DNA of 43,923 bases from the IMG/VR virus record IMGVR_UViG_3300031841_001579, positions 1 to 43,923 of that record; one strand, written 5' to 3'. The first letter of the stretch is position 1; each line of letters opens with the position of its first letter. Shown here in pieces: positions 2,549 to 43,493 of the stretch. Below the pieces are notes generated by a model. That model was not told the DNA's origin, searched no databases, and worked only from the letters and a program-made list of their open reading frames with translations. The position numbers and the translations under genes are program-made. Source of the stretch: a virus.

Positions 2549-4536
2549 CAGTATTCAGGCGTGGTCGGCTGCGGGACAGCAGACGGCACCGCGTTCGTGG
2601 CGAGCGCGGACTGGAGGTTGTTGTCGATCTCGCCGGGACCAGCGCCGACGCCGGGGATGATCTCGCCGCCCTGGACGGGGTTGAGAACATCCATGCGGCG
2701 AGCGGCAAACATCTGGTGCATCGAGATCGCGTTGCGCAGTTCAAGAGTGCTGTCCGGAGTTGCCTTGGTGACCGCAAGGTTCTGGAGCATCTTGTTGTAG
2801 TACGCGATGTAGAGTTCGTGCTGATCGTCCTCGTACACCGGGATCGGCTCCTGCGTCTGGAGGTAGCGGATGTACCGCTCCTCGGGACCGAGTTCGATGG
2901 TCGGCGAGTCGAGGAAGATGTCGGCGTCCTCGATGCCCATCGCGTTACCGAGTCGGCGCAGAGCTTCGCGCGTCATGCGAGGCATACCCGTGGCGAACGC
3001 ACGCTGCGTGTTCGTCGTGACGGTGAGCCATTGCATAAGCGCCTGGATGTCGCCCGAGTTCGACAAGTGACCCAGTTCAACCGGGTCGATGTCGAAGGTG
3101 AAGCAGGCGGTCGCCGGGTCGGGAACATGCAGAGTTCGCGTCACGCCGTTAGCAAGCGGGACCTCGATCTCGGTGCCGAAGACTTGGCGCTGGTACTTGA
3201 AGCTCGCTTGCGCGAGGCGAGTCCACATACCCGCCATGACCTCAAGACGATCAGCGTTGCGCTGGTTCGCATTCTCTGTGATCGCCGCCGCTTCCGTCGC
3301 AGACTTGCGCGGGTTCGCTGCCATACCGCGCATCGTCGGAGAGACGCCAGTAACATCGTCGAACAGTTGCATGTAGGTCGAGAGCGCAGAGAGGTACTCT
3401 TGGAGTACGGCGCTTTGCTCGACCGGACGCATGGTTGCGTTGACGCCTCGACCCGTGTCGTCGGGATCGACGCCGACGAAGACGGTGCCGCCCGGCGCAA
3501 TGTGCTTGACCGCGCCGATTGCCTCCTCGCTGATCGCGTTCTTGTCGAAGAGGATCGTCTTGTTGACTGTGCGGATCTCACGGTCGATCTGGACTAGGGT
3601 CTGAACGATCATCCGCATCAGCGGAATCCACGACAGAACCTCGGAGGCAGGAACATCCTCGTTAGGCGCGGGGTCGAGGAAGTTGCCGATGATGACGGGG
3701 CAAGCTGCAACCGACTCGGTGCAAACATAGCTGCCCAGTTCGTCGCGTGCGTGCAGGCGCGAGTCTGCGGAGAGGGGGATCGAGGAAGATGCCGCAGGAT
3801 CAACATCGGTCGGGACCGACACGAAGATCGACATGGGGCACTTCTCTTTGCCAACGCTGATGTTCCCGTGACGGAAGCCGTCGTGGTAGACCTCAGTCAG
3901 TCGGCAGATCGTCCAAGCGGGCGGGTCGTCGTTGTCGCGCTCAGGACGCCACTTCTCGGGGATGTCGCCCCATTGGATGTCGTAGGCGTGCCAAGTGAAG
4001 CGACGGTAGAACGGCTCGTAGCCGCAGTCGCGCGGCTCAAGAGCGAGGTACTTGACGCGGTTGTAGGCGTACTTCTCGGACTTATCGAACGCAGCTTTGA
4101 CGCCGAAGTACGGCGAGAGCATTCCAATGAACGCGGCCTTGCGCATCGCTTCGCGGAGATGGCCGTGGTCGGTCATCACCCGCATGATCTGGTTCTGCTT
4201 CTCGACTAGGTGAGCAGCGCCAGCAACGCGAGCCTTTGCGCGAAAGGAGGGGACACCGGGGGTCAGGCCAGACACGATCTGGCGTAGACGGGAGAGGAAC
4301 AGGTTGGCGGTCGTTTCGGGTGGACGCCAGGAGCCGACACCGAGGGGCTCGTTGAAGACCTGCGCAGGGAGGCCCTGCTCCGGTAGGACGAGACCGTTGA
4401 GTCCGCCGAGCGGGTCGCGGCCCGTGTAAATGTCGGCGATCAGCTTCTCGTTCGAGCCCAGGGGGCCGCGAAGCGCGTCCATCGAGGACGCAACGAGGTC
4501 GCGCAGCTTATCAGCCGCATGTTCGTCCATGTGCAT
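2548..4536 (-). CDS. Portal (head-tail connector) protein
   Basis: A 662-aa protein directly downstream of the large terminase and upstream of scaffold and capsid, the standard place for the dodecameric portal through which DNA enters and leaves the head. The N-terminal half contains an aromatic-rich wing-like segment with Trp, Tyr and acidic residues around 175-215. The central helical part (about 395-430, including P-T-M-R-G-M and an Ala/Glu/Asn-rich helix) is typical of the stem and crown of large podoviral portals. The C-terminus is Pro/Thr-rich. The start is ATG 4536, with a second in-frame ATG two codons later. The length suits T7-like or larger portals. Function rests on context and general character rather than a catalytic motif. 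Confidence 0.85.
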   Translation of the reverse strand: MHMDEHAADKLRDLVASSMDALRGPLGSNEKLIADIYTGRDPLGGLNGLVLPEQGLPAQVFNEPLGVGSWRPPETTANLFLSRLRQIVSGLTPGVPSFRAKARVAGAAHLVEKQNQIMRVMTDHGHLREAMRKAAFIGMLSPYFGVKAAFDKSEKYAYNRVKYLALEPRDCGYEPFYRRFTWHAYDIQWGDIPEKWRPERDNDDPPAWTICRLTEVYHDGFRHGNISVGKEKCPMSIFVSVPTDVDPAASSSIPLSADSRLHARDELGSYVCTESVAACPVIIGNFLDPAPNEDVPASEVLSWIPLMRMIVQTLVQIDREIRTVNKTILFDKNAISEEAIGAVKHIAPGGTVFVGVDPDDTGRGVNATMRPVEQSAVLQEYLSALSTYMQLFDDVTGVSPTMRGMAANPRKSATEAAAITENANQRNADRLEVMAGMWTRLAQASFKYQRQVFGTEIEVPLANGVTRTLHVPDPATACFTFDIDPVELGHLSNSGDIQALMQWLTVTTNTQRAFATGMPRMTREALRRLGNAMGIEDADIFLDSPTIELGPEERYIRYLQTQEPIPVYEDDQHELYIAYYNKMLQNLAVTKATPDSTLELRNAISMHQMFAARRMDVLNPVQGGEIIPGVGAGPGEIDNNLQSALATNAVPSAVPQPTTPEY

Positions 4537-4538
4537 AG

Positions 4539-6146
4539 TCAGCCCCAGTAGTCGTTACGCCGCGATGTCTGCTCCGTCCAGATTCGCGTGGGGTACGGCC
4601 CCAACTCGGGGGCGGGTACGCCCGGAAGTTGACCCCGCCGTTCAACCATCGTGCTAAGTAGCGCAAGTGCCGAGATCAAATCGTCGGAATCACTAAGAGG
4701 ATACTCGGTCAAGCGTTGGACTAGCAGGTCTCGGCCAGGGAAATCTTTCGGCAATACGAGGTAGCCCTTCCGCATTGCGGTCTGTAGCGACATTAGTCGA
4801 TAGGGCAGCGATGCGTTGCCAATCTTCTGGCCCCGGATCTTGACGCCTTTGATCTTCTTGCGCTCCTCTAGCCACGGCGCAAAGAGCGACTGAGAGGCGA
4901 CTTGCTCGATCCAGATCGACTTGAGGTTCTTCTTGAACTGGTGGCAGGCCACATCCTCGATCCAGCAGGCTGCGGCGTCCGCGCCGCCCGCGATCTCCTT
5001 GGCGAATACCGGGAAGAAGATGTTGCGGTCCTTGGGAAAGCCACGAAGTCCCAGTTGACCAGCCGGGATGACCCGCACCACGACCAAGCCGTTGAGGTCG
5101 CCCTTGGCTCCGTCGATGCGGGCGACCGGATCGTAGAGCAGAATCTCCGGGCCGTCAGGCAGTTTGTCCAGCGCCAACGCCTCGTCGGTAGCAGCGTGAA
5201 CAAGAGCAAGGTCGAAGAGCGCCTCCTCGGACGGGACTGGCTCGCAAAGGTACTGAGCAGAGAAGAATGTGCGCGATAGCACTCGACTCTTCTCCGATAC
5301 TTCTTCTTCGGTTAGGAACGCGGGGCACAAGGCGTAAGCGCCGTCAGGTCCAGGGCCTTGGCCGTCCTTTTCCTTGGTGACGGGGTTAATGCCGTCCCAA
5401 ACCCCGAAGCGGAACTGTGCCCAATCGTCCCGGCGTTGCAGGTATGCGGTCACATCTTGGAATGCCCAAGGGGTGCCGATGTGATTGATAGGCGAATCGG
5501 GATCGTACATCAGAGGCTCAAGAGCTTCGATGAAGTCGATCACCTTCTTGCGCCGCGCGTAGGTTCTGGAGTTCTGTTCGTTGGCCGGGTCGTCGATGAC
5601 CGCGCGGGTCGGGTGGTTTCCGGCGAGGTTCGACTCGACCGAGGCCGCGAAGACCGAGGGCTCGCGCCCTTTGCCCGCCGCGCGGCCCGCGATGTTGAAC
5701 TGGTCGGCTGGTCCAGAGCGGCGAGGGTCACCTTGGACCGCGAGCCAGGGGAAGACTTCGGATACCGGAATGTAAACCCCAGGTATGAGTTCAAGGTCGC
5801 CAGTTAGGCGGTCTCGGATCTCGCCGACGAGCTTGCGGGCTAGGTCAAGGGTCGCACATGCAATCAGGTTGCGCGACTCCGGGTGGCGCAAGAGGTGATG
5901 GCAAGTGTCGATGACCGTGATGAGGGTCGATTTCGCGTGGCCCCGTGGGACGATGGTCGAAGTCTTGGACTGCGAATGCACATGGTCGAGCATGTCGCGG
6001 TGAAACTGCCCAAAGCGTTTGCGTCCCGTAGCCGGATCGCCTTTGTAGCCCAAGGCTTCGCCGAACGCGATCGGGTCAGCCCAGATCCGCTTGATCGCTT
6101 CGACGAGGGCTTGGTCCTTGCCCGCGATGTTGGGGAGATTCGTCAT
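4539..6146 (-). CDS. terL: Large terminase subunit (ATPase and nuclease)
   Basis: This packages DNA into the prohead and cuts it into genome units. Using ATG 6146 (535 aa), a Walker A-like loop V-P-R-G-H-A-K-S-T is at 66-74 and Walker B A-V-I-D-D-P at 182-187. The C-terminal RNase H-like nuclease has its first acidic position in L-L-Y-D-P (Asp 339) and a last acidic cluster in S-D-S-D-D-L-I near the C-terminus. In-frame starts further upstream exist at 6176 (ATG) and 6185 (TTG), but neither has a ribosome-binding site and the extra residues look unlike protein; 6146 also lacks a strong site. It is the first gene of the leftward late arm. Confidence 0.93.
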   Translation of the reverse strand: MTNLPNIAGKDQALVEAIKRIWADPIAFGEALGYKGDPATGRKRFGQFHRDMLDHVHSQSKTSTIVPRGHAKSTLITVIDTCHHLLRHPESRNLIACATLDLARKLVGEIRDRLTGDLELIPGVYIPVSEVFPWLAVQGDPRRSGPADQFNIAGRAAGKGREPSVFAASVESNLAGNHPTRAVIDDPANEQNSRTYARRKKVIDFIEALEPLMYDPDSPINHIGTPWAFQDVTAYLQRRDDWAQFRFGVWDGINPVTKEKDGQGPGPDGAYALCPAFLTEEEVSEKSRVLSRTFFSAQYLCEPVPSEEALFDLALVHAATDEALALDKLPDGPEILLYDPVARIDGAKGDLNGLVVVRVIPAGQLGLRGFPKDRNIFFPVFAKEIAGGADAAACWIEDVACHQFKKNLKSIWIEQVASQSLFAPWLEERKKIKGVKIRGQKIGNASLPYRLMSLQTAMRKGYLVLPKDFPGRDLLVQRLTEYPLSDSDDLISALALLSTMVERRGQLPGVPAPELGPYPTRIWTEQTSRRNDYWG

Positions 6147-6197
6147 GCCCAAGAAGCATAACCGAACGGAGGGCATGGGACCCAAGGACGGTGGCTA

Positions 6198-6384: not shown

Positions 6385-7224
6385 CTAGCCAAGGAACTTA
6401 ATAAGTTCGGGGCGCTGCTCCAAAACTTTATCGAGTGCCGCATTGTTTAGAGTTTCCAGGCTCCGCTTAATATCAAGATCGGTCGCTTGGTAATCTTCAA
6501 TAACGGGCTCGACAGTTTGAATCTTGCGCGCGTACCTATGAAGTTTTGAGATGAAGTCACTAAGTGCAACTTCTTCGTCGATGCGTTTTGCTTTAGCTTC
6601 CGCAAGTTTAACTAGAATCTCGGTTTCCTCTTTAATGAGTTCGCCGAACCAGACCGAACGGAAGATAGCGCGCGCCTTTTTAATCTTATCGTGGCGCGTA
6701 CTTCTTGGCTCATTTTCGAGCCCACCGTTATTATCTCCCATCGACATAAGAAAGAGAATATCTCTCGTTTCCTTATTAACTTTGCCGTCTTCCCAGAGAC
6801 CGTAAATAGTATCGAAAACGCGTTCCGTTTGTTCGATAACCTCGGCCTCGGAAAGTTGAATATCTGCCTCGGTATCGAGCGAAAGTTGCACGAAATTGCG
6901 CTTCTTTTTTTCGCCCCAATACTTCAGCAGTTTATTTTGAACTGCGACGACTGCATAACCAATAAGGTTGCCGATGGTAAGACCATCTTTTTTGGTCGAG
7001 TAGTTAATACATGCAGCGATAGCTTCAGAACTAAGTTCCTCACACTCCGCAATGGTTCTTGCGTCCATAGCAACAACAAAGTTGCCGGACACCGTTTTTG
7101 TTTTACCGCCGAAAGCGTAGTTCTTTGCTGCGCGGTTAACACTTTGAATCAGATGCTCCCAGCATTCGCTAGTTGCGTCCGAAACTTTAATATCTTCGAT
7201 CAGTTTCTTTTTTGAAGTTTCCAT
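6385..7224 (-). CDS. Possible sigma-factor-like transcription regulator (AT-rich)
   Basis: A 279-aa soluble protein, rich in Lys, Glu and Asn. Residues about 75-135 contain a helical segment ending in N-K-L-L-K-Y-W-G-E-K-K-K-R, then an S-L-D-T stretch. Residues about 150-195 include N-K-E-T-R-D-I-L-F and R-S-T-R-H-D-K-I-K-K-A-R. The order resembles region 2 followed by a region-4 helix-turn-helix of small sigma-70 family proteins, but the match is loose and by eye. The gene is clearly AT-richer than its neighbours, has its own terminator, and is flanked by repeated AATAAC palindromes. It stands alone at the early/late divergence, as expected for a switch regulator, but could also be an acquired gene. 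ATG 7224 has AAAGAG upstream. Confidence 0.45.
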   Translation of the reverse strand: METSKKKLIEDIKVSDATSECWEHLIQSVNRAAKNYAFGGKTKTVSGNFVVAMDARTIAECEELSSEAIAACINYSTKKDGLTIGNLIGYAVVAVQNKLLKYWGEKKKRNFVQLSLDTEADIQLSEAEVIEQTERVFDTIYGLWEDGKVNKETRDILFLMSMGDNNGGLENEPRSTRHDKIKKARAIFRSVWFGELIKEETEILVKLAEAKAKRIDEEVALSDFISKLHRYARKIQTVEPVIEDYQATDLDIKRSLETLNNAALDKVLEQRPELIKFLG

Positions 7225-7368
7225 CTCTTTGTTTAAGAAAGAATCTCGCCGAGTTGTTAATCAATAACTAGCTAACTAAATAACTAGTTATCGAACTAGA
7301 AAACACAATTTCTAGCGTTGGCTATTAAACTATATGCACCCTGCGATTGTCCAGTATGCTCAATGTAA
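7225..7368. promoter_or_regulatory. Divergent AT-rich control region with palindromes
   Basis: This spacer separates the leftward sigma-like gene from the rightward early arm. It contains the perfect palindrome ATAACTAGTTAT (7280-7291) and the related TTAATCAATAACTAGC (7257-7272), which resembles TTATTGATAACTAGC just beyond the other end of the gene (6376-6390). Promoters for both directions should lie here. I could not settle on a convincing -35/-10 pair, so only the region is called. Confidence 0.4.
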
Positions 7369-7450
7369 AGAACGGAGGTTCTGTCCTAAGTGCCTGGGAG
7401 AGCGGCACTTAAAGTTTCCCGGGGATTGATCCGGACAGAACGACCGTTCT
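7369..7450 (+). ncRNA. Structured leader RNA: 7-bp + 9-bp helix enclosing a hairpin/pseudoknot
   Basis: AGAACGG (7369-7375) pairs with CCGTTCT (7444-7450). After an AG/GA tandem mismatch, GTTCTGTCC (7378-7386) pairs with GGACAGAAC (7433-7441). Inside, TAAGTGCC (7387-7394) pairs with GGCACTTA (7404-7411). Its loop GGGAGA (7396-7401) can pair with TTTCCC (7415-7420) to give a pseudoknot, although the 3-nt connecting loop is short for an 8-bp stem. All pairs are Watson-Crick except one G-U. It heads the rightward early arm about 100 nt before the first gene, a riboswitch-like or attenuator-like position. It does not match a riboswitch class I can recall. The pairing is observed; the function is unknown. 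Confidence 0.6.
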
Positions 7451-7555
7451 GGGTCTCTAGGGGTGTCCGAGCCTCGGAGTTTACACGACGACGGCACGGG
7501 CATTCACGATGCGCAAGTGCGCGTCCCCTCATTAACTTCGGAAAGCGTGAAAACG

Positions 7556-7855
7556 ATGGACGATCTTATCAACGGGGCCGCGTCCCTGTCGGATCTCAAA
7601 AAGATGGACAAGTCTCAAATGGCCGAACTGCTGTTCAAGTACCAGCAGGCAGAGATCGCTAAGGCTCGCCTTGGCGGTGTGATCTGTGAAGTCGTCGAGA
7701 AGATGTCCAAGGCTGGCAAGCCCTACACTACCGTCAAGTTCAAGAACGGCGTGTTTGGCGGCTACGGGGCCTCGTTCCCCAGCGTGGAAGCGTTCAAGTT
7801 CTTCACCGAGAACCTTGAGCTTCTTACTGGCCTCTTCGAGAGTGAAGTCAAGTGA
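7556..7855 (+). CDS. Hypothetical early protein, 99 aa
   Basis: First gene of the rightward arm. The N-terminal half (to about residue 45) is helical with a Lys/Asp-rich stretch, the middle has A-G-K-P-Y-T-T-V-K-F-K-N-G-V-F-G-G-Y, which looks like beta strands, and the C-terminus is acidic. No known family is recognised. ATG 7556 is chosen over an upstream GTG at 7463 because residues before it look non-coding and the upstream DNA is structured. The ATG has only GGAAAG some 15 bases upstream; the bases GCGTGAAAAC just before it recur before the next small gene. Confidence 0.65.
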   Translation: MDDLINGAASLSDLKKMDKSQMAELLFKYQQAEIAKARLGGVICEVVEKMSKAGKPYTTVKFKNGVFGGYGASFPSVEAFKFFTENLELLTGLFESEVK

Positions 7856-7861
7856 CGCGAC

Positions 7862-7889
7862 GGGTCGGGCAACCTCGGTTGTCCGGCCC
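7862..7889 (+). promoter_or_regulatory. Strong 12-bp intergenic hairpin without U-tract
   Basis: GGGTCGGGCAAC pairs with GTTGTCCGGCCC (two G-U wobbles) around the tetraloop CTCG, five bases after the stop of the 99-aa gene. It is terminator-like in strength but is followed by TCCCCTACCC rather than Us. It is more likely an mRNA 3'-end stabiliser or processing site between the first gene and the following small membrane-protein gene. Confidence 0.5.
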
Positions 7890-7940
7890 TCCCCTACCCA
7901 TCGTGAGGGTCTACAAAGTAGGCGTGAAAACCGAGCAATG

Positions 7941-8033
7941 ATGAACTTTATCTATAAGCACATCATTTCCCAGAGCGATCTCGTTGACCTCATCGTGATC
8001 GGGTCGCTCATGTCCCTGATCTTCATTCTGTGA
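7941..8033 (+). CDS. Small membrane protein, 30 aa
   Basis: A short ORF starting ATG 7941 (an ATG directly before it at 7938 is an alternative), ending in a hydrophobic helix S-D-L-V-D-L-I-V-I-G-S-L-M-S-L-I-F-I-L. The stop overlaps the next start as TGATG, the coupling seen throughout this arm, which argues that it is translated. One transmembrane segment with a short polar N-terminus is all that can be seen. Early single-span peptides in phages often act on host membrane proteins, but nothing here shows a target. Confidence 0.5.
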   Translation: MNFIYKHIISQSDLVDLIVIGSLMSLIFIL

Positions 8034-8371
8034 TGGAAGACTACCTGAAAGAATTCGAAGTTGGGGGCGACCCCATGGCTCTCCCTCCCAAGGATCATCA
8101 GTTCGCTGCTGTTTACTTGGACTGGGAAGTTCGTGATGACGAGGGTATCCACAAAGTGGGTAACCCCGTGATCAAGATGCCGCTCATCTTTTCCCCTGAT
8201 GTGAACGATGCGATCATCTGGGAACTGCGTGATATGGCAGACGAATACAACGAGCAATGGCAGCCCACCATGAGCTGGGATAAAGTGGCTAGGGTTTTCG
8301 TGGGAGATTTTCCTACCCCCTACCGTGAAACTATCCAGTCTTCGATAACTCGTCTGGGCGAGTATAAATAG
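8033..8371 (+). CDS. Hypothetical early protein, paralogue A (112 aa)
   Basis: An acidic soluble protein sharing an ordered set of motifs with the next gene: V-G-G-D-P near the N-terminus, a V/H-rich strand, P-L-I-F followed by an acidic residue and V-N, and a helix ending E-Y-N-E-Q-W-Q-P. The two genes are therefore a tandem duplication. ATG 8033 overlaps the preceding stop. The last codons and the TAG stop lie inside the first pseudoknot element (8348-8405). No known family is recognised. Confidence 0.7.
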   Translation: MEDYLKEFEVGGDPMALPPKDHQFAAVYLDWEVRDDEGIHKVGNPVIKMPLIFSPDVNDAIIWELRDMADEYNEQWQPTMSWDKVARVFVGDFPTPYRETIQSSITRLGEYK

Positions 8372-8405
8372 CCGTTAAGCCCAGAGCGTGACCCCTTCGG
8401 GGGTC
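8348..8405 (+). ncRNA. Pseudoknot plus UUCG-hairpin element, copy 1
   Basis: Stem ACTCG (8348-8352) pairs with CGAGT (8359-8363). The whole loop TCTGGG (8353-8358) is complementary to CCCAGA (8380-8385), giving an H-type pseudoknot with a 16-nt A-containing connecting loop. Four bases later GACCCC (8390-8395) and GGGGTC (8400-8405) close a TTCG tetraloop. The element spans the 3' end and stop codon of paralogue A. A homologous element at 8763-8821 keeps all three helices through compensatory changes, the best internal evidence that the RNA structure is selected. Confidence 0.7.
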
Positions 8406-8429
8406 GGTCGTGTCCCCAAGACATTCGTC

Positions 8430-8762
8430 ATGACTATCGATCTCAAGAAAGATGTTGGGGGCGACCCCATTCTCGTTCCGATGGACGAAATCCAGCACGC
8501 TGTTGTCTGGATGAAGACTGAGGAGTATGGCGGTCCCGAAGAAGGCGGTTGGTACTACTCATGCGGAACTCCGCATATCTCTGTGCCTCTGATCTTCGGT
8601 GAAGAAGTGAACCAGATGATCAAAGATCGACTGTTTCGCTGGGCCGAACAATACAACGAGGAGTGGTCGCCCATGTACCGATGGGAACCGCACGCCACCG
8701 TTTCTTACCCGCTGGGTAAAAATGTGAAAGCGTACCCTACCCATCGCCCTCATTATGAGTGA
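8430..8762 (+). CDS. Hypothetical early protein, paralogue B (110 aa)
   Basis: The second member of the tandem pair: V-G-G-D-P, H-I-S-V-P-L-I-F followed by G-E-E-V-N, and A-E-Q-Y-N-E-E-W-S-P align in order with paralogue A. Here a Gly/Tyr-rich insertion follows the first strand. ATG 8430 is chosen; a GTG at 8388 would start inside the UUCG hairpin of the RNA element and adds residues with no counterpart in paralogue A. No strong ribosome-binding site precedes it. Function unknown. Confidence 0.65.
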   Translation: MTIDLKKDVGGDPILVPMDEIQHAVVWMKTEEYGGPEEGGWYYSCGTPHISVPLIFGEEVNQMIKDRLFRWAEQYNEEWSPMYRWEPHATVSYPLGKNVKAYPTHRPHYE

Positions 8763-8821
8763 ACTCGTCTGAGCGAGTATAAACAGGCGTATAGGCTCAG
8801 AGCGTGGACCCTTCGGGGTCC
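8763..8821 (+). ncRNA. Pseudoknot plus UUCG-hairpin element, copy 2
   Basis: Stem ACTCG (8763-8767) with CGAGT (8774-8778); loop TCTGAG (8768-8773) complementary to CTCAGA (8796-8801); then GGACCC (8806-8811) with GGGTCC (8816-8821) around TTCG. Compared with copy 1, one pseudoknot pair changes G-C to A-T and two pairs of the UUCG stem change together. The element begins directly after the TGA of paralogue B and so is non-coding here, whereas copy 1 overlaps coding sequence. That argues for conservation of RNA rather than protein. Confidence 0.7.
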
Positions 8822-9100
8822 GGACGCACAGCGGTGTGAATCTGCGATGTGAAGTCGCGTGCCTAAGGGTTAGCTGCCCGTCCCGCCAGATACTTCTCAA
8901 GCATCGTGACTCTCGTTGCACGCTAAATGTCCCTCCTGTCGAGGCCGGACCAATGGGTACCCACTCCCGCCGCGACAAGCATACATCTCTTCGTGTAACG
9001 GATACTGATTCTGCGACAACCGTTAGTGGCCCAGCGTGGACGCACGCTAGGTCACGCACCTTCCACGGTGGCACCGTCCGGTAATACGGTGTAAACAACA
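8822..9100 (+). other. Non-coding leader with several hairpins, including mutually exclusive ones
   Basis: No convincing gene is seen in these 279 bases. TAACGG (8996-9001) pairs with CCGTTA (9020-9025), and AGCGTG (9033-9038) with CACGCT (9043-9048). Immediately before the next gene, ACCGT (9073-9077) can pair backwards with ACGGT (9065-9069), or forwards as CACCGT (9072-9077) with ACGGTG (9086-9091); the two are mutually exclusive. TGGGTACCCA at 8954 is a 10-bp palindrome. The next gene has no Shine-Dalgarno, so a conformational switch over its start is conceivable. Confidence 0.45.
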
Positions 9101-9778
9101 ATGGAACTGCCCAAGTACCAAGACTGGTCACCTACTTCTCTGGACCCTAGTGGTCTCAACTGTGATGACCAGCAAGATTGGCTGGTTGCCCCGGTCTCGA
9201 TCAATCGTGATTCGGGTCCACTCGATCAATCTAACTGGGAGTATGTGATCGCTGATCTAGAGCGTGATCATGCTGATACAGACTGGGAGATCCACCGCTT
9301 CGGCCATTGGGCCTGTGGCTGGTTCGAGATCATCCTACTGCGTCCCGGTACCTCGGCTGCGGACTACGCAACTGAGATTGCCGATGATTTGCAGGGCTAC
9401 TGCATTCTCGACGAGTCTGACTTCTGCGAGAAAGAGCATGAATGCTGTAATCAGTCCTACGAGCAGTATGTTCGCAAGGATCTGATGGAAGCTATTCACA
9501 AACTGCTGCCTGACGACGGTGACTTTAGCTGTTGGCAGGAGTGGTATGACGATGACGAGAAGTATCTCGAACGCCGTGATATTTCTCAGGGCACTATCGA
9601 CTTGTACTTTTGGGAACACGCCGAGTGGTGTGTGGAGTCGGACGGTAGTGCATACCCATACGATATTGATGTGCTGGCTCAGTCCATCGTGGACGAGTTC
9701 CCGGCGCTGCTCAAGGACGGTGAAGTGTGGCGGCAACACCTCATCGCACAACAAACTATGCCGCTTCCCTTTGACTAA
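9101..9778 (+). CDS. Hypothetical acidic protein, 225 aa
   Basis: A very acidic soluble protein with many Trp, Tyr and Asp residues. A Cys cluster (Y-C-I-L-D, F-C-E-K-E, E-C-C-N-Q) lies at about residues 101-120 and a run of acids near Y-D-D-D-E at about 150. No transmembrane segment and no family I recognise. ATG 9101 lacks a Shine-Dalgarno and sits ten bases after the alternative hairpins. Strongly acidic small phage proteins can mimic DNA, but nothing here proves that. Confidence 0.7.
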   Translation: MELPKYQDWSPTSLDPSGLNCDDQQDWLVAPVSINRDSGPLDQSNWEYVIADLERDHADTDWEIHRFGHWACGWFEIILLRPGTSAADYATEIADDLQGYCILDESDFCEKEHECCNQSYEQYVRKDLMEAIHKLLPDDGDFSCWQEWYDDDEKYLERRDISQGTIDLYFWEHAEWCVESDGSAYPYDIDVLAQSIVDEFPALLKDGEVWRQHLIAQQTMPLPFD

Positions 9779-25091: not shown

Positions 25092-28000
25092 CTCGCCATA
25101 CCTGCCTTCATCAAGCCCACCGCCGTGTGGTTGACCGCCTTGATGTTGTCGATGAGCTTCTTGCGCATACGCTCGTCCGAGGTAGCCGCAAGACGCATCT
25201 TCATCTTCTGGATCATGTCGCGGTACGAGTAGACCGCACGCATGGTCTCTTGGTGCGGGCTGGCCTTCTTGATCCCGAGACCAAAGTCCGAGTCCAAGAT
25301 CCAACGCTCCGTGTCCGTGTAGTCCACATACGGCGACCGCTCCTCCTGCGTGGCGAAGCTGCCGTAGCCGAGTTCACGCGCCGTGTATTGCAGAACTTTA
25401 AACGGCCAGATCGCGTTCTGTGCCTGCTCGAACATTCCCCGGCGCGGGTAAGGGTTGCGCTCGCCGCCCGAGATTAGCTCGCCGCCACCAGTCATGATGC
25501 CGAAGATGCCTCCGTAAGACTGGATACCTGCGTCACTAAGTTGCCGCTCCATCAGCCTCGGGCTAAACGGGTGCGCAGAGTCACCGAAACCAAACGCCTC
25601 GGCAAACGGGATAGCGAGGCGGTCCCCGAAAGTTGCCAGCGTAAGAGCGGCCTCGAAGTTGGCGTTCAAGCGGCCAAGATCGACGCGGTACTCGCCGAGC
25701 TTGAGGTGGGCCTTACCCTCGTCAGTAGTCACGATGCGCTGGTTCTTGATCGTGTTGGCAAGACGGGAAAGACGGGACGGGTTCTCCGCAAACTTGCTCC
25801 ATGCCCAAGGCATGTAGTGGCGCGGGAAGCTGTAGTAGCTAATCGCACGCCGGACGCCATTCCGCTCAAACGGAGTCAGCCGCTCGTAAGGAACATGCGC
25901 GTTCTTCGCAATCTCAACCGCACGCTCAAGCGGGTGGCCTTCACGGGCCAGCCCGATAACCGTGGACATGCGGTTGATAACCTCGCCAGTCTCGCGCAGT
26001 TCGCCAGCGGTGCCGCCCAGCTTCTCGGTAAGGCGATCAAAGAAACCGCGCACCTTTCCGCCAAGAAGATCGCCAGTACCGATGGCAGGCCCGCCCTCCA
26101 TGAGTGCGGCCATGCGCATGTTGATCAGACTGTCCGAAACCGTGCGCGATCCACGCGAGATCGAGGTAGCGAAGGTACCGAACAGGTTGCCCTCGGCAGC
26201 AGCCTGCATCAAATCGTACAGCGATAGCTGGCGACCGCCGCCCAGATCAAGGCTTGCGTTCGGGATCTCACCCAGGCGACTTGCCCGAAGAACTTCCGGG
26301 TCAATATTGTTGGGCAGCGATCCGCCTGCGCGACGGATTGCATCAACGACATCGTTGTGGGGCAGTAGCGTGACGCCGCTGTGCGTCATGCCCTGGACAT
26401 CCAGCATCGAGGTGGTCTGATCAGCGTGCTTAAGGAAGCGCGTGTCTCCCCAAAGCAGCTTCATCGTGTCCATGTAAGACGCGGCTAGGTTGTTCGGACT
26501 AACCCCAGCCGCACTTGCCTGAAACACACCCGATGCCAAGTTGTAAGCCTGGAACGGGACACGGAACGCCGTCTGGAACAGCTTGATCCCGTAGTTGATC
26601 GTGTCGAACATGCGCCAACCTTCGGGCGCAACCTTCGCGGTGTTGCTTACAGCCTTGGCCGCTGCCGTGATAGTGCGTTGGTTGCCAAAGACAACCTGCG
26701 TGTCCATAAGCTGATCAAGCGCGGCGCGGGAAGTCAGGTTACTGGCGTCGATCCAGTCGCCGTCGAGGTCAGCCTTGGCAGAAGCCCTGACGAAAGCCCT
26801 AGAACTGGTCGGCTTTACACCAGAGGTCGCCTCGTCAGCCATCCGGCCCAAGGGCAGAAAGCCGAAGCCCGACTCCTCGATGCCAAGCGAGACGATGTGT
26901 TCGTCGCCATCGTCGGTCCTGATCTTGATGTATTGGGGAACAACATCTTCGGTCTGCTCAAGCTCTCTCAGCGCGAGCGTCGTAGTGCCCTGCTCAGGGT
27001 CGGTTGTCCGACGAACGCTGCTGCGCAGGAACTTGCGACTGATTGGGTTCTTGGCGCTGTCGAGGACACCGACAACCGTACCGCCCAGGGCAAGGGACTC
27101 ACCCGGAGCTTTGCCCGATGCCTTGAGGAAGGTACCGAAGAAGTCCTCGATAGAGGCTTCCTGCTGGGCGCTGGACAGTCGCGTCAGTAGCGAGGCAACC
27201 GGGTCACTACTGAGGCGCGTCTCGTCGTAGGGCATCGCGTGCCCGCGAACGGTGTAGCCCTCATCCTTCATGACCTCCTCTAGCTCATCGAACCAACGCT
27301 GACTGTTGGGGTCACCGGAAGCAGAGGCTTCGCGCAGCGCAGCGTGCAGTTCGTCAAGCTCGTCAACAGTCAGCGAGTCAGTAGTTCGTTTAAACCGAGT
27401 CGAGTTCCGCATACCCAGGCGGGTAGCAATCTCGGTGTCGGTGCTGTCCATGTTGCCGATGATGCGCTCAATGCGGGCACGCCCGTTCTTACTAAAGAAC
27501 CTGCCCAGGTAGCCGATAGGTGAACCGGGACCAAAGACTCCCGACTCTAGGCTGGCAAAGAAGATGGACTGCTGCACGCCGCGCATACCGTCAAGCAGAG
27601 CCCGCGCCTTCGGAGGCAGAGCTTCAAGAACGATGTCGTCCACAATCGTGGAGATGTCGTTCATCGCAGAGTGAATGTCGTCCAGCAGTTCGTGCGGGAT
27701 TACCGGAGACTCAACGCCAGCTTTGGTTTGTGCCCTGAGGTAAGCACGCGCCTCGTTCACAGCCATGCGTGCTTGCCCATACGCCATCGCGTACTCGGTC
27801 GGCTGGCGTGACGAGGCAACGACACCCTCGTCAAGCAGGTTCTCCATAAGGTCAATGTCCCCGCGCTGAATACGAACAGGGTCCGAAACCTCGCCCGGAA
27901 GTTTAACCTTGATAGGCTTTACGGGGCCGTCGTAACCAGACTCACCGCGCTTGAGTTTCTGCGTCCTCGACGCGGCACGACTATCCTGCGCGGAACGGAG

Positions 28001-30628
28001 GCGTCGGTAGTCCAGGCCGTCGCGGTAACTGTATTTAGCGCCCAGTTCATTCCAGCCCAGGATCTCGGTCTCGTCAAAGACGGTGCCCTTCCCTGCGAGG
28101 ATGTCCTGACCTTCCTTGCCGATAGACCGACGCAAGGTAGAAATCTCAGACAGCGGAATGTCGATCTTGCGCGTACTCGGGATCAGGTCCGGACCGTACT
28201 TAGTGCGGTAGTTATTGTTCGACGCCAGCATATCGCGGACGGCTTGCATGGCCTCGGAGACCGTGCGGTACTCCTGCTTCGTACTCAGACCAAGGCGGCG
28301 CATGTGGCGGTCAGACAGGCCAGCGTAGCTACTGAGCCTGTAACCGTTCTCAGTCATGTGCAGTTGCAGCTTGTATGCGTCAAGCTCGCTGCGTGCCTGC
28401 TCGCTCGTCCAGCGCGTGCGTCCGTCCTGCCAAAGCGGGCGCTCAACAAGCTCCTCCCGTTTGATCCGGCGGTTACCCTTCTTGCCGCCGCGCCGCATCG
28501 ACTCGATGACCTCGGCGTCCGTCAGCCCGTGCCTAGCTTTAAACGCAGCAAGGTCAGGGTTCTCGTCGATGAAGCCCGCGACCTCCTTCGGCGTCATCTC
28601 GCGCTGCGCCTGGGACTCAATCTCCATCAACGAGCTAGTGATCTCGTCATCACTAAGCTCGCCAACAAACCTGCCGCTTTGCCTGCCGCCGTACAGCGTG
28701 TGCTTGTTATGCGCACGCCGCATCAGGGCTTGATCAAAGCGGTCAAACTTGACGCCCTCCCTGTTAACGATGCCTGCGATCTGATCGAAGCTGGTAGTAA
28801 GCTGCTGCTTGTCCAGCGCGGGCAGCATACTCCCGATCTCATCGTTGAAGTTGGCAGCGATGCGGTCGCGCACAATCTGAGGCAGACCACTCGAATCGAG
28901 CAGTCCCTCAATAGCCCGCATCGAACCGTGGTGCCGCGTAAGGAAAGTCTGGAACGACCTGAGAACTTCGTCCGCGTTCTTCGGGTTGATGCGAGCAAGG
29001 CTCGTAGCCGTGACCAGTTCGTCGGTCAACGGTCGGCCCGTCATCATGTGGTAGAGCAAGGACTCGACATCCTCGGCCCGCGACCCAGGCATCTCTAGCA
29101 GGGCTTCGTTCAGCCCCTTGTAGAACGCCTTGCCCAGCTTGTCCACGCGGTCCTGCCCAGCAGCCGCCTCCTCGATGAGCTTCTGCACACCCTTGGCGTT
29201 GAACGCCGAGCGCGTACCCGTGACGAAGCCTTGGTTGATTAGCGCCTTAGCCTTAGACCCCGTGCTGAAAGCAAGGTCAGACAAGAAGGCAAACACATTG
29301 CCCTCGTCGCGCAGAGCTTTGCGCCTGTTACCGAGTTGCCCGACAAGCTCGCCAAGCTCGTTCTGCTTGAGCGTGGTAGTCAGTTCGCCGTTGTTCAACA
29401 GGGAGGCGGCAGAGTCGTAGAACGACTGCGCGTCATCGAGACGCCTGCGCAACGCCGTGCGAGCAAGCTCAGGGCTCTTAGCAAGTTTAAACTTCGCCGG
29501 GTCCTTGGCTCCCCGACCAATCAAGCGAGACCAAATCTGGTCCACGCTATCGTTCTCAAGAATGTTGCCCGAGTATTTACGCATCACCTTCTCGAAGGCG
29601 TCCTGCGTAGTCATGCCCGCTGCGGTGAGCTGGTCGAATGTCTCCATAATGTCTTCTGTCCTATACTTAGACAGTTGAGGCACAAGTTCGCCCGCGCCGT
29701 TTACACGGTCGGTCCAACCCATAAGTCGGGCGTCCTCGCCATTCTTAATGGTGCGGGCGGCGTGCTGGATCACAGCGCGGGTTTCCTCGCCCGCTCGCCA
29801 ACCGCCCCGGAACTGCCTAACGGGTTCAGTTAGTCCGCGAGTCGTTGCGCCGATGATCGGGACCTTGCCCAAGCCGTCGCCAGCCATGCGCGTAACCGCC
29901 GCAACGCCGAGTTTGTCCGCAGCCGCGCCCGTTGCCGAACCAGTCAGCTTCCACCAGTTCTGATGCGCGGTCGGGACCTCGATCCGAAGACCAAGGTTCA
30001 TCAGGCCAGGAAGACCGACAGCAAGTTTGCGGTCTGCCGTCCTCTTGAGCGTGTCCGACAGTAGCTCGTCAGGCGTAATGACGCCCTTGCTAAGGCCTCG
30101 CTCGTATGCGTCAAAGTTCTGACCGAACTTCTTGCTGGTTCGAAGAGGTGCGTTGCCAGTCCTGGCGGTCTTGATTACCTCTTGGAAGTCTGCGTTAGTA
30201 GCCGTGCGCAGCCAGTCGTCGGTCAGCTTGCCCTGCGACTTAGCCGTTGCCTCCACAGCCTCACGCACCGCAGAGTTACGCAGCATTTGCGTAGCTCCCT
30301 TCGCGCCCTTGCCCAGAATCGAAGTGACCCCGCCCAGGTAGAAGAGCGGGTCGGACAGCATGGAGGCCGCAAGCTCGCCGCCGAAGCCTGGATCGAACCC
30401 CATAGCCTTAGCCATGTAGTCCGGCATGATGTCTTCCTTGTGGTCGTCAATCATGCCCAGTCCAGGGACCAGAGCAAAATCAAGGAGACCCTTCTCACTA
30501 AACAGGTCGATGTTCTCGTCCTTCGCCGCGCGGATCACGCGCCAGAGAACCTGCTGCGGAAGCCCGAGAGTCGAGTTCCAAACGCGGTCGAATGTGCCCG
30601 CCTGTTGCCTAGTGTTGTAGAGACTCAT
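25088..30628 (-). CDS. Giant internal virion / DNA-ejection protein, 1846 aa
   Basis: The third and largest of three consecutive virion genes, in the place of T7 gene 16. It is mainly helical and charged, with a hydrophobic glycine-rich segment near residues 70-110 (L-V-P-G-L-G-M, then G-G-E-L-A-A-S-M-L) and further amphipathic stretches around 1370-1430. Such proteins are carried in the head and extruded into the cell envelope during DNA entry. I do not see the transglycosylase motif of T7 gp16 with confidence. The ATG overlaps the previous stop (TAATG) and the stop overlaps the holin-like ATG. Confidence 0.75.
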   Translation of the reverse strand: MSLYNTRQQAGTFDRVWNSTLGLPQQVLWRVIRAAKDENIDLFSEKGLLDFALVPGLGMIDDHKEDIMPDYMAKAMGFDPGFGGELAASMLSDPLFYLGGVTSILGKGAKGATQMLRNSAVREAVEATAKSQGKLTDDWLRTATNADFQEVIKTARTGNAPLRTSKKFGQNFDAYERGLSKGVITPDELLSDTLKRTADRKLAVGLPGLMNLGLRIEVPTAHQNWWKLTGSATGAAADKLGVAAVTRMAGDGLGKVPIIGATTRGLTEPVRQFRGGWRAGEETRAVIQHAARTIKNGEDARLMGWTDRVNGAGELVPQLSKYRTEDIMETFDQLTAAGMTTQDAFEKVMRKYSGNILENDSVDQIWSRLIGRGAKDPAKFKLAKSPELARTALRRRLDDAQSFYDSAASLLNNGELTTTLKQNELGELVGQLGNRRKALRDEGNVFAFLSDLAFSTGSKAKALINQGFVTGTRSAFNAKGVQKLIEEAAAGQDRVDKLGKAFYKGLNEALLEMPGSRAEDVESLLYHMMTGRPLTDELVTATSLARINPKNADEVLRSFQTFLTRHHGSMRAIEGLLDSSGLPQIVRDRIAANFNDEIGSMLPALDKQQLTTSFDQIAGIVNREGVKFDRFDQALMRRAHNKHTLYGGRQSGRFVGELSDDEITSSLMEIESQAQREMTPKEVAGFIDENPDLAAFKARHGLTDAEVIESMRRGGKKGNRRIKREELVERPLWQDGRTRWTSEQARSELDAYKLQLHMTENGYRLSSYAGLSDRHMRRLGLSTKQEYRTVSEAMQAVRDMLASNNNYRTKYGPDLIPSTRKIDIPLSEISTLRRSIGKEGQDILAGKGTVFDETEILGWNELGAKYSYRDGLDYRRLRSAQDSRAASRTQKLKRGESGYDGPVKPIKVKLPGEVSDPVRIQRGDIDLMENLLDEGVVASSRQPTEYAMAYGQARMAVNEARAYLRAQTKAGVESPVIPHELLDDIHSAMNDISTIVDDIVLEALPPKARALLDGMRGVQQSIFFASLESGVFGPGSPIGYLGRFFSKNGRARIERIIGNMDSTDTEIATRLGMRNSTRFKRTTDSLTVDELDELHAALREASASGDPNSQRWFDELEEVMKDEGYTVRGHAMPYDETRLSSDPVASLLTRLSSAQQEASIEDFFGTFLKASGKAPGESLALGGTVVGVLDSAKNPISRKFLRSSVRRTTDPEQGTTTLALRELEQTEDVVPQYIKIRTDDGDEHIVSLGIEESGFGFLPLGRMADEATSGVKPTSSRAFVRASAKADLDGDWIDASNLTSRAALDQLMDTQVVFGNQRTITAAAKAVSNTAKVAPEGWRMFDTINYGIKLFQTAFRVPFQAYNLASGVFQASAAGVSPNNLAASYMDTMKLLWGDTRFLKHADQTTSMLDVQGMTHSGVTLLPHNDVVDAIRRAGGSLPNNIDPEVLRASRLGEIPNASLDLGGGRQLSLYDLMQAAAEGNLFGTFATSISRGSRTVSDSLINMRMAALMEGGPAIGTGDLLGGKVRGFFDRLTEKLGGTAGELRETGEVINRMSTVIGLAREGHPLERAVEIAKNAHVPYERLTPFERNGVRRAISYYSFPRHYMPWAWSKFAENPSRLSRLANTIKNQRIVTTDEGKAHLKLGEYRVDLGRLNANFEAALTLATFGDRLAIPFAEAFGFGDSAHPFSPRLMERQLSDAGIQSYGGIFGIMTGGGELISGGERNPYPRRGMFEQAQNAIWPFKVLQYTARELGYGSFATQEERSPYVDYTDTERWILDSDFGLGIKKASPHQETMRAVYSYRDMIQKMKMRLAATSDERMRKKLIDNIKAVNHTAVGLMKAGMAR

Positions 30629-33600
30629 TACTGCGCGTAAGACGCCTTAGTCTGAACAGCCCAAAGGATCATCGCTTTGTAGTGGGGATCCTCAAGGTCA
30701 TCAAACCCTTTGACCTCTTCCAGAATACCCCGAACTGTCGGGTCTGTGATGTCGTTAACCCTCATCTCAAGGATGTCTTGGTTACTCGCCATCGCCTGAA
30801 CATCCCTGGTTGAACGACCAAAGACGGCTGTCGAAGCATTAATAGCAGCCTGCCTCTCGTCACCATCCGGGTAGCGGTTGCTGTCTGCAACAAGATCGCC
30901 AAGCATCAGGCCCGCGCTATCGAACAAGTTCATAGCAACCTCTTCGGAGTTAATCGCCGTCCCAAGCTGCTGCTCAAGGGAACCGAGAGTGCGGTTTGCC
31001 GCCTCAGTAGGCAGCCCGATACTGGGGTCACCAGCAATCGGCGTGAGTGCCGACTTGATGGCTTCCTGAAAGTCGCTAGAGCTAAGGTTCAGTACGCGAT
31101 ACTCTGCTGCGTGTTGAAGGATGCCCAGGGCAAGTTGCCTTTCGAGCATCCCACGGAAGCCGCGTTCGTCGCCAGCAACCTGCTGCTTTGCCGAAAGAGT
31201 CTTAACGGTTTTCTGCACATCGCCTTGTGCGCCGCTGAGACTCTGGATGTCTAGGAACCGCAGGTCTTCCGGACCTTCTTCGCCGTCAGGATCGAATGTA
31301 ACAACGGCCTCGTAACCACGGACCCCTGTCTCTCTGTCGCCGATTAGCCCGGTGCTGATCCGACTTAGATCCGCGACAATCTCCTCGCCCCGTTTGACTT
31401 CGGCAGCAACCTCTTCCGGACTCAGCACCGTCGAGCCGTAACGATCACGCTCAAGGTTCCTGATCTCTTGAGTGACCGGACCAAAGCCCATGCGCGAAGG
31501 CGTCATACCGCTACGCTCACCGAAGAGGTCAGTCGTACTCATGCCGCCGCCTACAACCAGCGCCGTGTACGCGCTGCGCGGGTCGCTTTCGATTGCGGCC
31601 CTGATCTCGCGCTGAATCTTGTAACCCTCAAAGTCGTTTGACGGATCAAAGCGCGTGTTGTACGCAAACTGGTGCAAACTCAGCGCGTCAAACAGGCGTC
31701 GGTACTCCATCTCAAACTCGTCACCCCGATAGCCAGAAGCCTCTTGGTACTTCTCGATTTCGTTGGGGCTCAAGTCCTCAAATGCCTTGACCTTGTACCC
31801 GTTAACGACACCAGCCAGCGGGCTCTGAGCAGCAACTCCGGTACGAAGTCTCTGCGTAGCATGTGTGTAGGAGCCCTTCTTGCTTTTGCTGATCGATGGG
31901 ATCTTAGTCAGGCTTTGCCAAGTGACCAAGCTGTCGGCGTCATCGCCGCCCATCGTTGCAAACGACGGCACCGTGAATGTCCCGGTGAGAGAATCGAAGA
32001 TGTCCTGGCCGCGCAGATCCAGCTTCTCGCTGCTGCCGTATGACCGCTCATCGGTCTCCTGCCTAAGTTTAAAGTTGCCCAGGTCGGGGTGAAGCGGGCT
32101 GCGATAGAACTCGCCGCCTTCACTAAAAAAGGTCCCGAGAGTCGTACCTAGCTTTTGGCGCAGCGCAGTCTTGACCGGACCATCGGTCATACTCTCGATG
32201 CGCCTAGACAAGACTGCTGCTTCCACAATAGGCTCATCAGTCTCGCGGTCGAAGTTACGCTCAAGGAGTTGGCCGTAAATAATGTCTACCGCTTGGTCAG
32301 GTAGGGCAGCGCCCGCCTCACCTAGCCTAGCCCCTTGATTGGCACTCCAAGTAATCTGCCCCGCAATAGCGTCTTCAAGATCAATGCCCTCGGCAGCAAG
32401 GGCTCGAAGCAGTTCCTCCTCGGGCAGTCCGGCATGTCCAAGGTCGGTAACCAACTCAAGTTGCGTGGCCTCGGCAAGCTGCCTCGTTTGAGTGTAACTC
32501 TGGATCTCGACGCTACGGTCGCCGTTGCGAGCAAGGCGCTGAACCTGACTCAGCAAAGTCTCTGCGTCAGCGCGGCCAGCGTCAGTCGCAAGACCTGCGT
32601 AGACTTCTTGAAGAAGACTTTCGGCATTCGCGTTCGTGCGATCAAGCAGCGGAACGATGTACGCCTCGTAGTCGTTCCCGAATACCGCCCTCAGTTCCTC
32701 CTCGCTACGCGACCTAAGAGACGAGAGCGTCTCGTCAATATCGTTGCCATGTACCCCGACATAAGCGTCGAGAAGCTGGTCTCTAACCTCAGGGTTAGCA
32801 ACGATCTCGGGCGCGAACATGGACGCAGAGAGATCAAGGTTACTCGGGCTAGTTTGGAGTGCCCGTTGATCACGAACTCTGGAGTTACCTACCGCCAAGC
32901 TCGTTTGCAAACCAATCGCGGAAGAAGACAGACCAGCGTAGCTACCGGGGAGGCCCGCAAAATCACCCGGACCACCGGGCTGGAGCATCGGGTTGTCCCC
33001 CGCTGCGTCGTACCTGTCTTGCCAAGCGGCAAGTTCTGACTCAAGATTACTAAGCGCAATCGCCCTGTCGCTAACGCTTGCAATCTCAGCGATCTCGCTG
33101 CCTCGGAGGAGCAAGCCGTCAAGATCGGCTTTTAGGCCACTAACTTTAGTCTTGGCGTTGTCCTCGTCACGCTGCACCTGCGCAATCGTCAGGGTCGGAG
33201 ATCCATCCGGATCGACCGTGATGCCGCGAGCCTGTAGCTGGGCCTCGGCTTGCGTCCGGGGCTCCATCGCTGCAAAGTTTCGGAGGGCACCCTGCCCTCC
33301 CATCGCGTTTACAGCGTTGGTTGCCCAGACAGTCGCGTCTGCATCTGCTGGCGCAAGGTTAGGGTTGCTTCGCTGGAACGATTGCAGGACGGCAGGACTA
33401 GTCCGCATCAGCGAACCAAGCTGCGCGATTGCCTTGGCGTTCTCGGAGCCGTGCTTTAGGTCATGCTCCATCCGACGCATTGCTGCGTCGTGGTTGCGGT
33501 CCATCTGCTTCTGGGCAGCCTGGAACTGCATGTCCTGCATCCGGGTGAATGCGTTCCATGCACGCTGTCGCGCTCCCTCGTCACGGGCCGCGATGCGACC

Positions 33601-41398: not shown

Positions 41399-42225
41399 GT
41401 CTTCGTGTAAATCTGCTTGGTGTTTGCCGTGTTCGACAGCGCGTCAGCCGTGTCGTTGACGGCGCTGATCGCCATGCTCGCCTTGATCTGGTTGGCGGTT
41501 CCACACCAAGTCAGCCAAGCCATGCGGGCGCGTTCGAGGATCGCGTCAAGCGCGGCCTCGGGCCAGTTCAAGTCGTGCGCATCGTCCGACATCTGGTAGT
41601 CGGACTCCATCTGCACGATGGTGAATCGCTCCGTCTCGGTGGGCGCGGGCCAGAGGCTCACGAACGAGCGGGCGTTGTAGTCGTCGTACCGCTGCTCAAA
41701 GTATTCCGGCGTGCCCGTTGCGAATGGATCGCGCCGCGCAAGCATCGGGTCGAACTGGAGCATGTTGCGCCGCTGACCCGAGCCGCGATAGACCGCCGTG
41801 ACTTGCCCGGTCGTGGGCAAGAGGACCGAGCGGCGAACAATCTTCGAGGCGTTTGTGCCCGTGTAGTTCCGCTCAAGCGTGTAGCCGATGTCGAAGACTG
41901 TCGTGGCCGTCTGCTTACGAATCAAAAACTTGGTAGTGCCCCCTGTCTCCTCGCAGACAATGATGTCTTGCGGCGAGATAAACCCAGCCGCGCCGCTGCA
42001 AGACAGCGTGGATTGTCCCTGCAATCCCGAGGCGCTAGTTAGCGCGTCCTCGCCAGGAACGGAGGCGCTGTAAACATCGTAGGCGATCCCAGGGATGCCG
42101 TCGATGAGTGCCCGGTAGAGCCCCGACTGGAGGGCTTCGTTGAGTCGGGCAGTCTCAACATCAGAGACAACGCCCAGCCCAAGGCGTCTCTTCAAACGAG
42201 TCCGAAGGTCTGCTCTCGTAGCCAA
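41395..42225 (-). CDS. Head-tail adaptor / tail tubular protein A-like, 276 aa
   Basis: It follows the capsid gene, where the gp11-like adaptor that connects portal and nozzle is expected. The helical N-terminus (R-T-R-L-K-R-R-L-G-L) and the C-terminal helices (L-N-W-P-E-A-A-L-D-A-I-L-E-R-A-R) surround a beta-rich middle with Y-F-E-Q-R-Y-D-D-Y, matching the general layout of this family in environmental podovirus-like genomes. The start is TTG 42225 with GGAG seven bases upstream. The 5' part is repeated at 1-130. Confidence 0.7.
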   Translation of the reverse strand: MATRADLRTRLKRRLGLGVVSDVETARLNEALQSGLYRALIDGIPGIAYDVYSASVPGEDALTSASGLQGQSTLSCSGAAGFISPQDIIVCEETGGTTKFLIRKQTATTVFDIGYTLERNYTGTNASKIVRRSVLLPTTGQVTAVYRGSGQRRNMLQFDPMLARRDPFATGTPEYFEQRYDDYNARSFVSLWPAPTETERFTIVQMESDYQMSDDAHDLNWPEAALDAILERARMAWLTWCGTANQIKASMAISAVNDTADALSNTANTKQIYTKT

Positions 42226-42264
42226 GCGTTGTCTCCTTAGTTAGTTAGCCGCGGCGGTCATCGT

Positions 42265-42281
42265 CCCCCACCTGAGGGGGG
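42265..42281 (-). promoter_or_regulatory. GC-rich hairpin between capsid and adaptor genes, right copy
   Basis: Same CCCCC/GGGGG hairpin as at 170-186. A nearby base differs between copies (CTCTCAGG versus CTTTCAGG), which breaks a longer alternative pairing but leaves this short stem intact. Confidence 0.35.
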
Positions 42282-42302
42282 CGGGGAACCTCCGCTTTCA
42301 GG

Positions 42303-43469: not shown

Positions 43470-43493
43470 CGCTACGCCCTCCGGTAGTTAGAG

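Follow-up and report, generated by a model that had tools for sequence, protein, structure and literature searches.

Two pistol ribozymes behind paralogous phage genes and their proposed role in cutting an early operon transcript

Why does a phage genome carry the same structured RNA element behind each of two neighbouring, related genes, what class of RNA is it, and what might it do there? The stretch of DNA analysed, hereafter the window, comprises 43,923 bases and is a virus record from IMG/VR. Because its ends overlap by 1,828 bases, the genome is probably ~42.1 kb and circular or circularly permuted. The overlapping ends (1-1828 and 42096-43923) show 88 mismatches, among them those between two versions of a 388-aa gene; either the assembly mixes strains or both copies are real. 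The window encodes a portal, a large terminase (4539-6185, minus strand), a DNA polymerase, and a helicase; structural genes run leftward, and a block of small genes runs rightward from ~7.4 kb, leading to the replication genes. Both elements are located near the start of this rightward block, together with the following genes.

8033-8371, plus strand: gene A (112 aa), paralogous to gene B; ribozyme copy 1 contains its final codons and UAG stop (8369-8371)
8348-8412, plus strand: pistol ribozyme copy 1, predicted cut 8407/8408
8430-8762, plus strand: gene B (110 aa), family motif YGGPEEGGW...RPHYE, with the stop one base ahead of ribozyme copy 2
8763-8828, plus strand: pistol ribozyme copy 2, predicted cut 8823/8824

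Two pistol ribozymes in a duplicated gene unit

The whole window was compared with 4227 Rfam families using cmscan. Copy 1 matched the pistol ribozyme family, RF02679, at 70.2 bits (E = 6.4e-11) and copy 2 at 66.5 bits (E = 4.5e-10), E values that place both far beyond chance; the family cut-off (GA) is 34.5 bits, both matches span the full model (1-68), and no other family among the 4227 exceeded its threshold in the window. This match rules out a new RNA family. An earlier note on this DNA, made from the sequence alone, had not recognised the element as a member of any known family, although its reading of selection on RNA structure, with a processing signal or 3'-end protection among the possible roles, was on the right track.

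A base-by-base check verified all the pairs that had been described in both copies, namely a 5-bp stem, a 6-nt loop complementary to a downstream segment, and a 6-bp stem with a TTCG loop. P1 forms five of five pairs in each copy (8348-8352/8359-8363 and 8763-8767/8774-8778), and, as in pistols generally, its 6-nt loop pairs with a strand between P2 and P3. All six pairs of this pseudoknot are present in each copy (8353-8358/8380-8385 and 8768-8773/8796-8801), the partner strand being 16 nt downstream in copy 1 and 17 nt downstream in copy 2. The UUCG stem, P3, comprises six pairs plus a basal U-G pair (8389-8406 in copy 1 and 8805-8822 in copy 2), and P2 has two standard pairs in copy 1 (8373-8374/8409-8410) and three in copy 2 (8787-8789/8825-8827). 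The compensatory changes reported between the copies are real: one pseudoknot pair changes from G-C to A-U, and two P3 pairs change from A-U to G-C and from C-G to A-U. Rather than stopping at 8405 and 8821, as had been proposed, the elements run on to 8412 and 8828. The seven bases missed in each copy contain the cleavage site and the P2 3' strand, and the RNA ends anticipated at 8405 and 8821 fall 2 nt short of the expected cuts.

The catalytic core is intact. Equivalents of purine 32, G33, G40, C41, and G42 (env25 numbering) are A/G, G, G, C, and G in the two copies, with A at position 32 in copy 1 and G in copy 2, and with the G40 equivalents, the general base, at G8386 and G8802, respectively. 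Cleavage is strongly reduced by mutations of A32, G40, and G42, while the A32G variant is active (PMC6154101); hence, the difference at position 32 should be tolerable. The two-nucleotide junction between P3 and P2 is present as G8407-U8408 in copy 1 and G8823-A8824 in copy 2. In pistols this junction is the cleavage site, with the consensus GU and some variation in base identity (PMC4604425), and cleavage is predicted between G8407 and U8408 and between G8823 and A8824. Crystal structures and measured self-cleavage are available for the class (PMC4604425, PMC6154101), and its cleavage leaves 5'-OH and 2',3'-cyclic phosphate ends (PMC4604425). Judged by sequence and pairing, both elements are full-length pistol self-cleaving ribozymes.

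Two other readings bear on this assignment. The pseudoknot-containing hammerhead ribozyme has the same helices and a secondary structure and connectivity nearly those of pistol (PMC11300833), but it differs in core sequence and general acid. In both window copies the loop between P2 and the pseudoknot is of the short pistol type rather than C-U-G-A-U-G-A, and no hammerhead model matched; the core sequence excludes this class, for which we see virtually no chance. A second possibility, that the ribozymes have decayed or lost activity and simply accompanied the gene in its duplication, would be consistent with the short P2 of copy 1 and with the drift of some copies from the same clade to 17-20 bits. 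Several stem positions differ between the window copies, yet every P1, pseudoknot, and P3 pair and all core residues have been kept, and we regard loss of function as very unlikely.

The ribozymes were duplicated together with their genes. Proteins A and B share 38% identity over 84 aa (BLASTP, E 6e-15), and direct repeats along gene and ribozyme are always spaced by 394-416 nt; this uniform spacing, with the protein identity, indicates that a gene-plus-ribozyme unit of ~400 nt was copied in tandem. The positions of the two copies relative to the genes are as first described. Copy 1 has retained its overlap with gene A, whose UAG stop (8369-8371) falls in the P1-P2 linker, and copy 2 starts one base past the UGA stop of gene B (8760-8762). 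The consensus of this linker, AUAAAUA, can itself supply stop codons. The gene-B protein was modelled with confidence (pLDDT 83.9); searches with it returned nothing in Pfam or NCBIfam, only PHROGs without assigned function, and no fold relative in the PDB at E <= 0.001. It belongs to a family of uncharacterised phage proteins with 375 relatives in IMG/VR and a near-invariant YGGPEEGGW motif, and gene A alone as a direct search query found no relative. A 20-nt repeat near the starts of genes A and B (8057-8076 and 8451-8470, 95% identical) forms a hairpin (UGGGGGCGACCCCA), encodes VGGDP, and is possibly an extra RNA element.

Pistols in related and unrelated phages

The terminase search yielded 42 related records, mostly short fragments. 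In 6 of these 42 records a pistol lies 2-4 kb from terL on the divergent strand, and three further records carry weak copies (17-20 bits) in the same place. The gene before the pistol in most of these pistol-bearing records is a gene-B homologue with the motif YGGPEEGGW...RP[FHY]YE. Five clade pistols (contigs L004, L009, L017, L036, and L138) have, in place of the usual AUAAA between P1 and P2, a G-rich linker that ends in AAAG or GAAG; their Rfam scores fall to 17-39 bits, with P1, the pseudoknot, and P3 mostly kept. Outside the clade the gene-B protein family is common and pistol-free. Across 71 other records of the family none exceeded the pistol cut-off, the best match being a single partial, weak one of 22.9 bits, and a ribozyme as constant partner of the family is thereby ruled out. 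The earlier note had named relatives that keep the gene and lose the pairing as evidence against its reading, and on this point the outcome is mixed. Within the terminase clade of this phage the ribozyme stays beside the gene, albeit with some copies diverged, whereas the protein family also occurs in many unrelated phages without a pistol; hence, the ribozyme is a trait of this phage lineage and not of the gene-B protein. A BLAST search of the 2.2-kb region against named phages returned just a 45-nt pistol core in Bacillus phage Troll.

To place the window among phage pistols generally, we scrutinized IMG/VR with a degenerate DNA pattern, which returned 66 contigs, 59 of them with a pistol above the cut-off. 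Positions were assessed for 47 distinct pistols with a clear P3, with random positions in the same DNA as the expectation. The start of the pistol fell between -30 and +10 nt from a same-strand ORF stop in 30 of the 47, compared with 4.6 expected, and none was located inside an ORF, compared with 24.2 expected. Pistols of seven cultured phages also start within ~20 nt of an annotated stop, namely those of Bacillus Troll, where the pistol is at the end of gene 267, Curtobacterium Pippin15, Microbacterium Count, Cellulosimicrobium DS1, Tenacibaculum Gundel_1, Microcystis MaeS, and Gordonia GTE7. An eighth, in Gordonia GMA2, lies behind a tRNA. No ribozyme is annotated in the records of these eight cultured phages.

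Pistols also occur in series. Contig L127 has five, L125 four, and L126 three, and L128, L129, L130, L131, and the window have two each, with at least one gene between copies in these arrays. Four of the L127 ribozymes have an ORF end no more than 2 nt away. In L129 (IMG/VR 3300048433_000447, 27000-33000), two pistols (2855-2919 and 3248-3313) are followed by three twister-P5 matches (3555-3626, 3818-3889, and 4926-4997), one of them just under the cut-off, and all five ribozyme matches start within ~10 nt of an ORF stop. The presence of pistol and twister, two unrelated classes, in equivalent positions is an argument for selection on cleavage itself.

Proposed cutting of an early operon transcript

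As the explanation of the whole locus, we consider it likely that the pistols cut an early polycistronic RNA behind each gene and so release single-gene pieces. The rightward early operon would be transcribed, and each ribozyme would fold P1, the pseudoknot, and P3, and then P2. It would then cut itself between P3 and P2 through attack by a 2'-OH, without protein, during or after transcription. The cut by copy 1 would fall immediately after gene A, and that by copy 2 immediately after gene B. Cleavage and end chemistry are ascribed to the window copies by analogy with the pistol family. The upstream product would end in a tightly folded pistol body with a 2',3'-cyclic phosphate, and the downstream product would have a 5'-OH, at which, in several phages including this one, a hairpin could form from the former P2 strand. 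The products and hairpins expected in the window are as follows.

8408-8823, plus strand: predicted 416-nt gene-B RNA between the two cut sites, with a 5'-OH, a pistol-folded 3' end, and a 2',3'-cyclic phosphate
8410-8424, plus strand: potential hairpin after cut 1, GUGUC CCCAA GACAU, its 5' strand overlapping the 3' strand of P2
8825-8838, plus strand: potential hairpin after cut 2, CGCAC AGCG GUGUG, stem 8825-8829/8834-8838

Copy 1 may cut slowly, since its P2 has just two standard pairs, and translation of gene A may delay the first cut, since the gene A stop lies inside copy 1; ribosomes ending at this UAG could keep copy 1 unfolded. Cutting is not needed for the gene-B protein, as numerous gene-B homologues have no ribozyme beside them. 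A search of 7200-9200 for sigma-70-like promoters gave none, terminator-like sites were no more frequent than chance, and both ribozymes are on the same strand.

The hairpins at the new 5' ends were assessed singly and as a group. The segment 8408-8432 folds at -3.5 kcal/mol (z -1.95), with a shuffle p of 0.06 when taken alone, and the longer stretch 8408-8450 adopts another, competing structure. The hairpin after cut 2 folds at -5.1 kcal/mol, with a p of 0.07 alone, and the 27-nt fragment 8824-8850 likewise prefers another structure. Both hairpins exclude P2 because they use its 3' strand. The group test used dinucleotide shuffles of 43 sequences that had been thinned by similarity and are not fully independent. 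The first 18 nt after the cut had a mean z of -0.98 (s.e.m. 0.27; n = 43), with control windows at ~0. A stem starting at nucleotides 0-3 was found in 14 of 43 sequences, compared with 5.4 +/- 2.1 after shuffling, and 0 of 300 shuffles reached 14, although one control offset was also raised (11 vs. 5). All five copies in L127 form a 5' hairpin, each with a different stem sequence, and MaeS and GTE7, which were outside the first set, do so as well (p 0.02 and 0.009). The hairpin is absent in most pistols with A/T-rich leaders, which rules it out as a universal pistol feature. A 5' hairpin formed after cleavage is thus moderately supported as a feature of a subset of pistols, the window included.

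Such ends may matter for the lifetime of the message. RNases E, J, and Y are stimulated by 5'-monophosphate ends in most bacteria studied, and 5' and 3' stem-loops stabilise messages, while effects of unusual 5' ends, including 5'-OH, on bacterial mRNA stability are largely unreported (PMC7509114). The 5' hairpin would favour release of the product and shield its end from 5'-end-dependent RNases, and cutting may stabilise or decouple the mRNAs; we infer protection of the RNA ends on these grounds. More tentatively, we suggest that unrelated phage groups might use pistols and twisters interchangeably as stop-codon scissors, and that in many pistols a switch of the P2 strand might cap the 5' end, such that the catalytic motif would define and protect both ends of the message.

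Other fates of the cut RNA were also considered, one of which concerns the following feature.

8829-9100, plus strand: noncoding DNA between copy 2 and the ORF at 9101, possibly a small RNA or structured leader, the 5' end of which would be generated by copy 2

The purpose of the ribozymes might be release of a noncoding RNA (8824-9100), or formation of the leader in front of the ORF at 9101, and not production of a gene-B mRNA, with copy 1 a by-product of the duplication. Pistols elsewhere adjoin structured RNAs (tRNA-Trp in GMA2, the tRNA array in L098, and GOLLD in two contigs), the stretch 8824-9100 folds at -98 kcal/mol (z -1.86, with 10 of 200 shuffles as stable), and matching stretches in relatives hold long stems. 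However, the stretch behind copy 2 has no Rfam match and no alignable conservation among relatives, its counterpart in the relative L134 is just 88 nt long, and no tRNAs were found behind copy 2; we consider this role unlikely. RtcB joins 5'-OH and 2',3'-cyclic phosphate ends. The RNA between the cuts might be joined into a circular gene-B RNA, through host RtcB-type ligation or reversal of the ribozyme, and the flanking ribozymes would indeed give both ends on one molecule (ends: PMC4604425). Circles were sought and not detected with tandem hammerheads (PMC3088659), and the longer arrays and single pistols fit processing better, making circularization highly improbable.

Relation to known ribozymes and structured RNAs

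Cutting of an operon transcript by ribozymes in series has precedents. Helices, pseudoknot, core, and two-nucleotide junction are the same in the window as in the described pistol class, RF02679 (Weinberg 2015; Harris 2015, PMC4604425). The phage location is typical too, and pistols near phage genes were already known (PMC4604425). Unlike the typical pistol, the window has two copies flanking one gene, with A instead of U after the cut in copy 2 and a very short P2 in copy 1. Clustered prophage hammerheads (Perreault 2011, PMC3088659) likewise occur in series around single genes or short gene blocks. They cleave in vitro and in E. coli and were proposed to cut long phage transcripts into gene-length mRNAs (PMC3088659). 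In the window, 8348-8412 and 8763-8828 flank gene B on the same strand in this manner, but the ribozyme class is another one, gene and ribozyme were duplicated together, and the stop-codon position of pistols was tested statistically. Theta ribozymes by phage tRNAs (PMC10879173) are, like pistols, self-cleaving phage RNAs that process co-transcripts; they have an HDV-like fold and act at tRNA 3' ends, whereas the window ribozymes accompany protein-coding genes.

Thus, the ribozyme family is known, and for hammerheads the cutting of phage transcripts by tandem copies was put forward in 2011; the orderly use of pistols as scissors after each gene has been only partly described before. Open-access papers on arrays of pistols, operons mixing pistols with twisters, placement at stop codons, or the 5' hairpin were not found, and we make no claim of priority because the original 2015 discovery paper fell outside the literature search. 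The natural role of small self-cleaving ribozymes in phages has been stated to be an open question for hammerheads and related motifs (PMC6155905). With pistols at stop codons, arrays of up to five, an operon combining pistols and twisters, and a cultured representative in Troll, operon cutting is directly testable in cultured phages. The 5' hairpin switch, if true, would offer a natural and compact route to mRNAs whose ends are defined and protected, and the wider patterns of phage pistols are worth proper study.

Some of these patterns involve structured RNAs. In Gordonia phage GMA2 (KR063281; contig L309), the pistol (1201-1257) lies 4 nt behind tRNA-Trp at the head of a tRNA cluster and near a tmRNA match, and in contig L098 a pistol is found inside a tRNA array. 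Contigs L048 (837-912) and L091 (11396-11471, minus strand) each have a pistol ~360 nt upstream of an Rfam GOLLD match, where it could make the 5' end of GOLLD, a large phage RNA. On one strand of contig L051, a type II hammerhead (1586-1656) is accompanied by a pistol (4565-4631), with a manA RNA further on.
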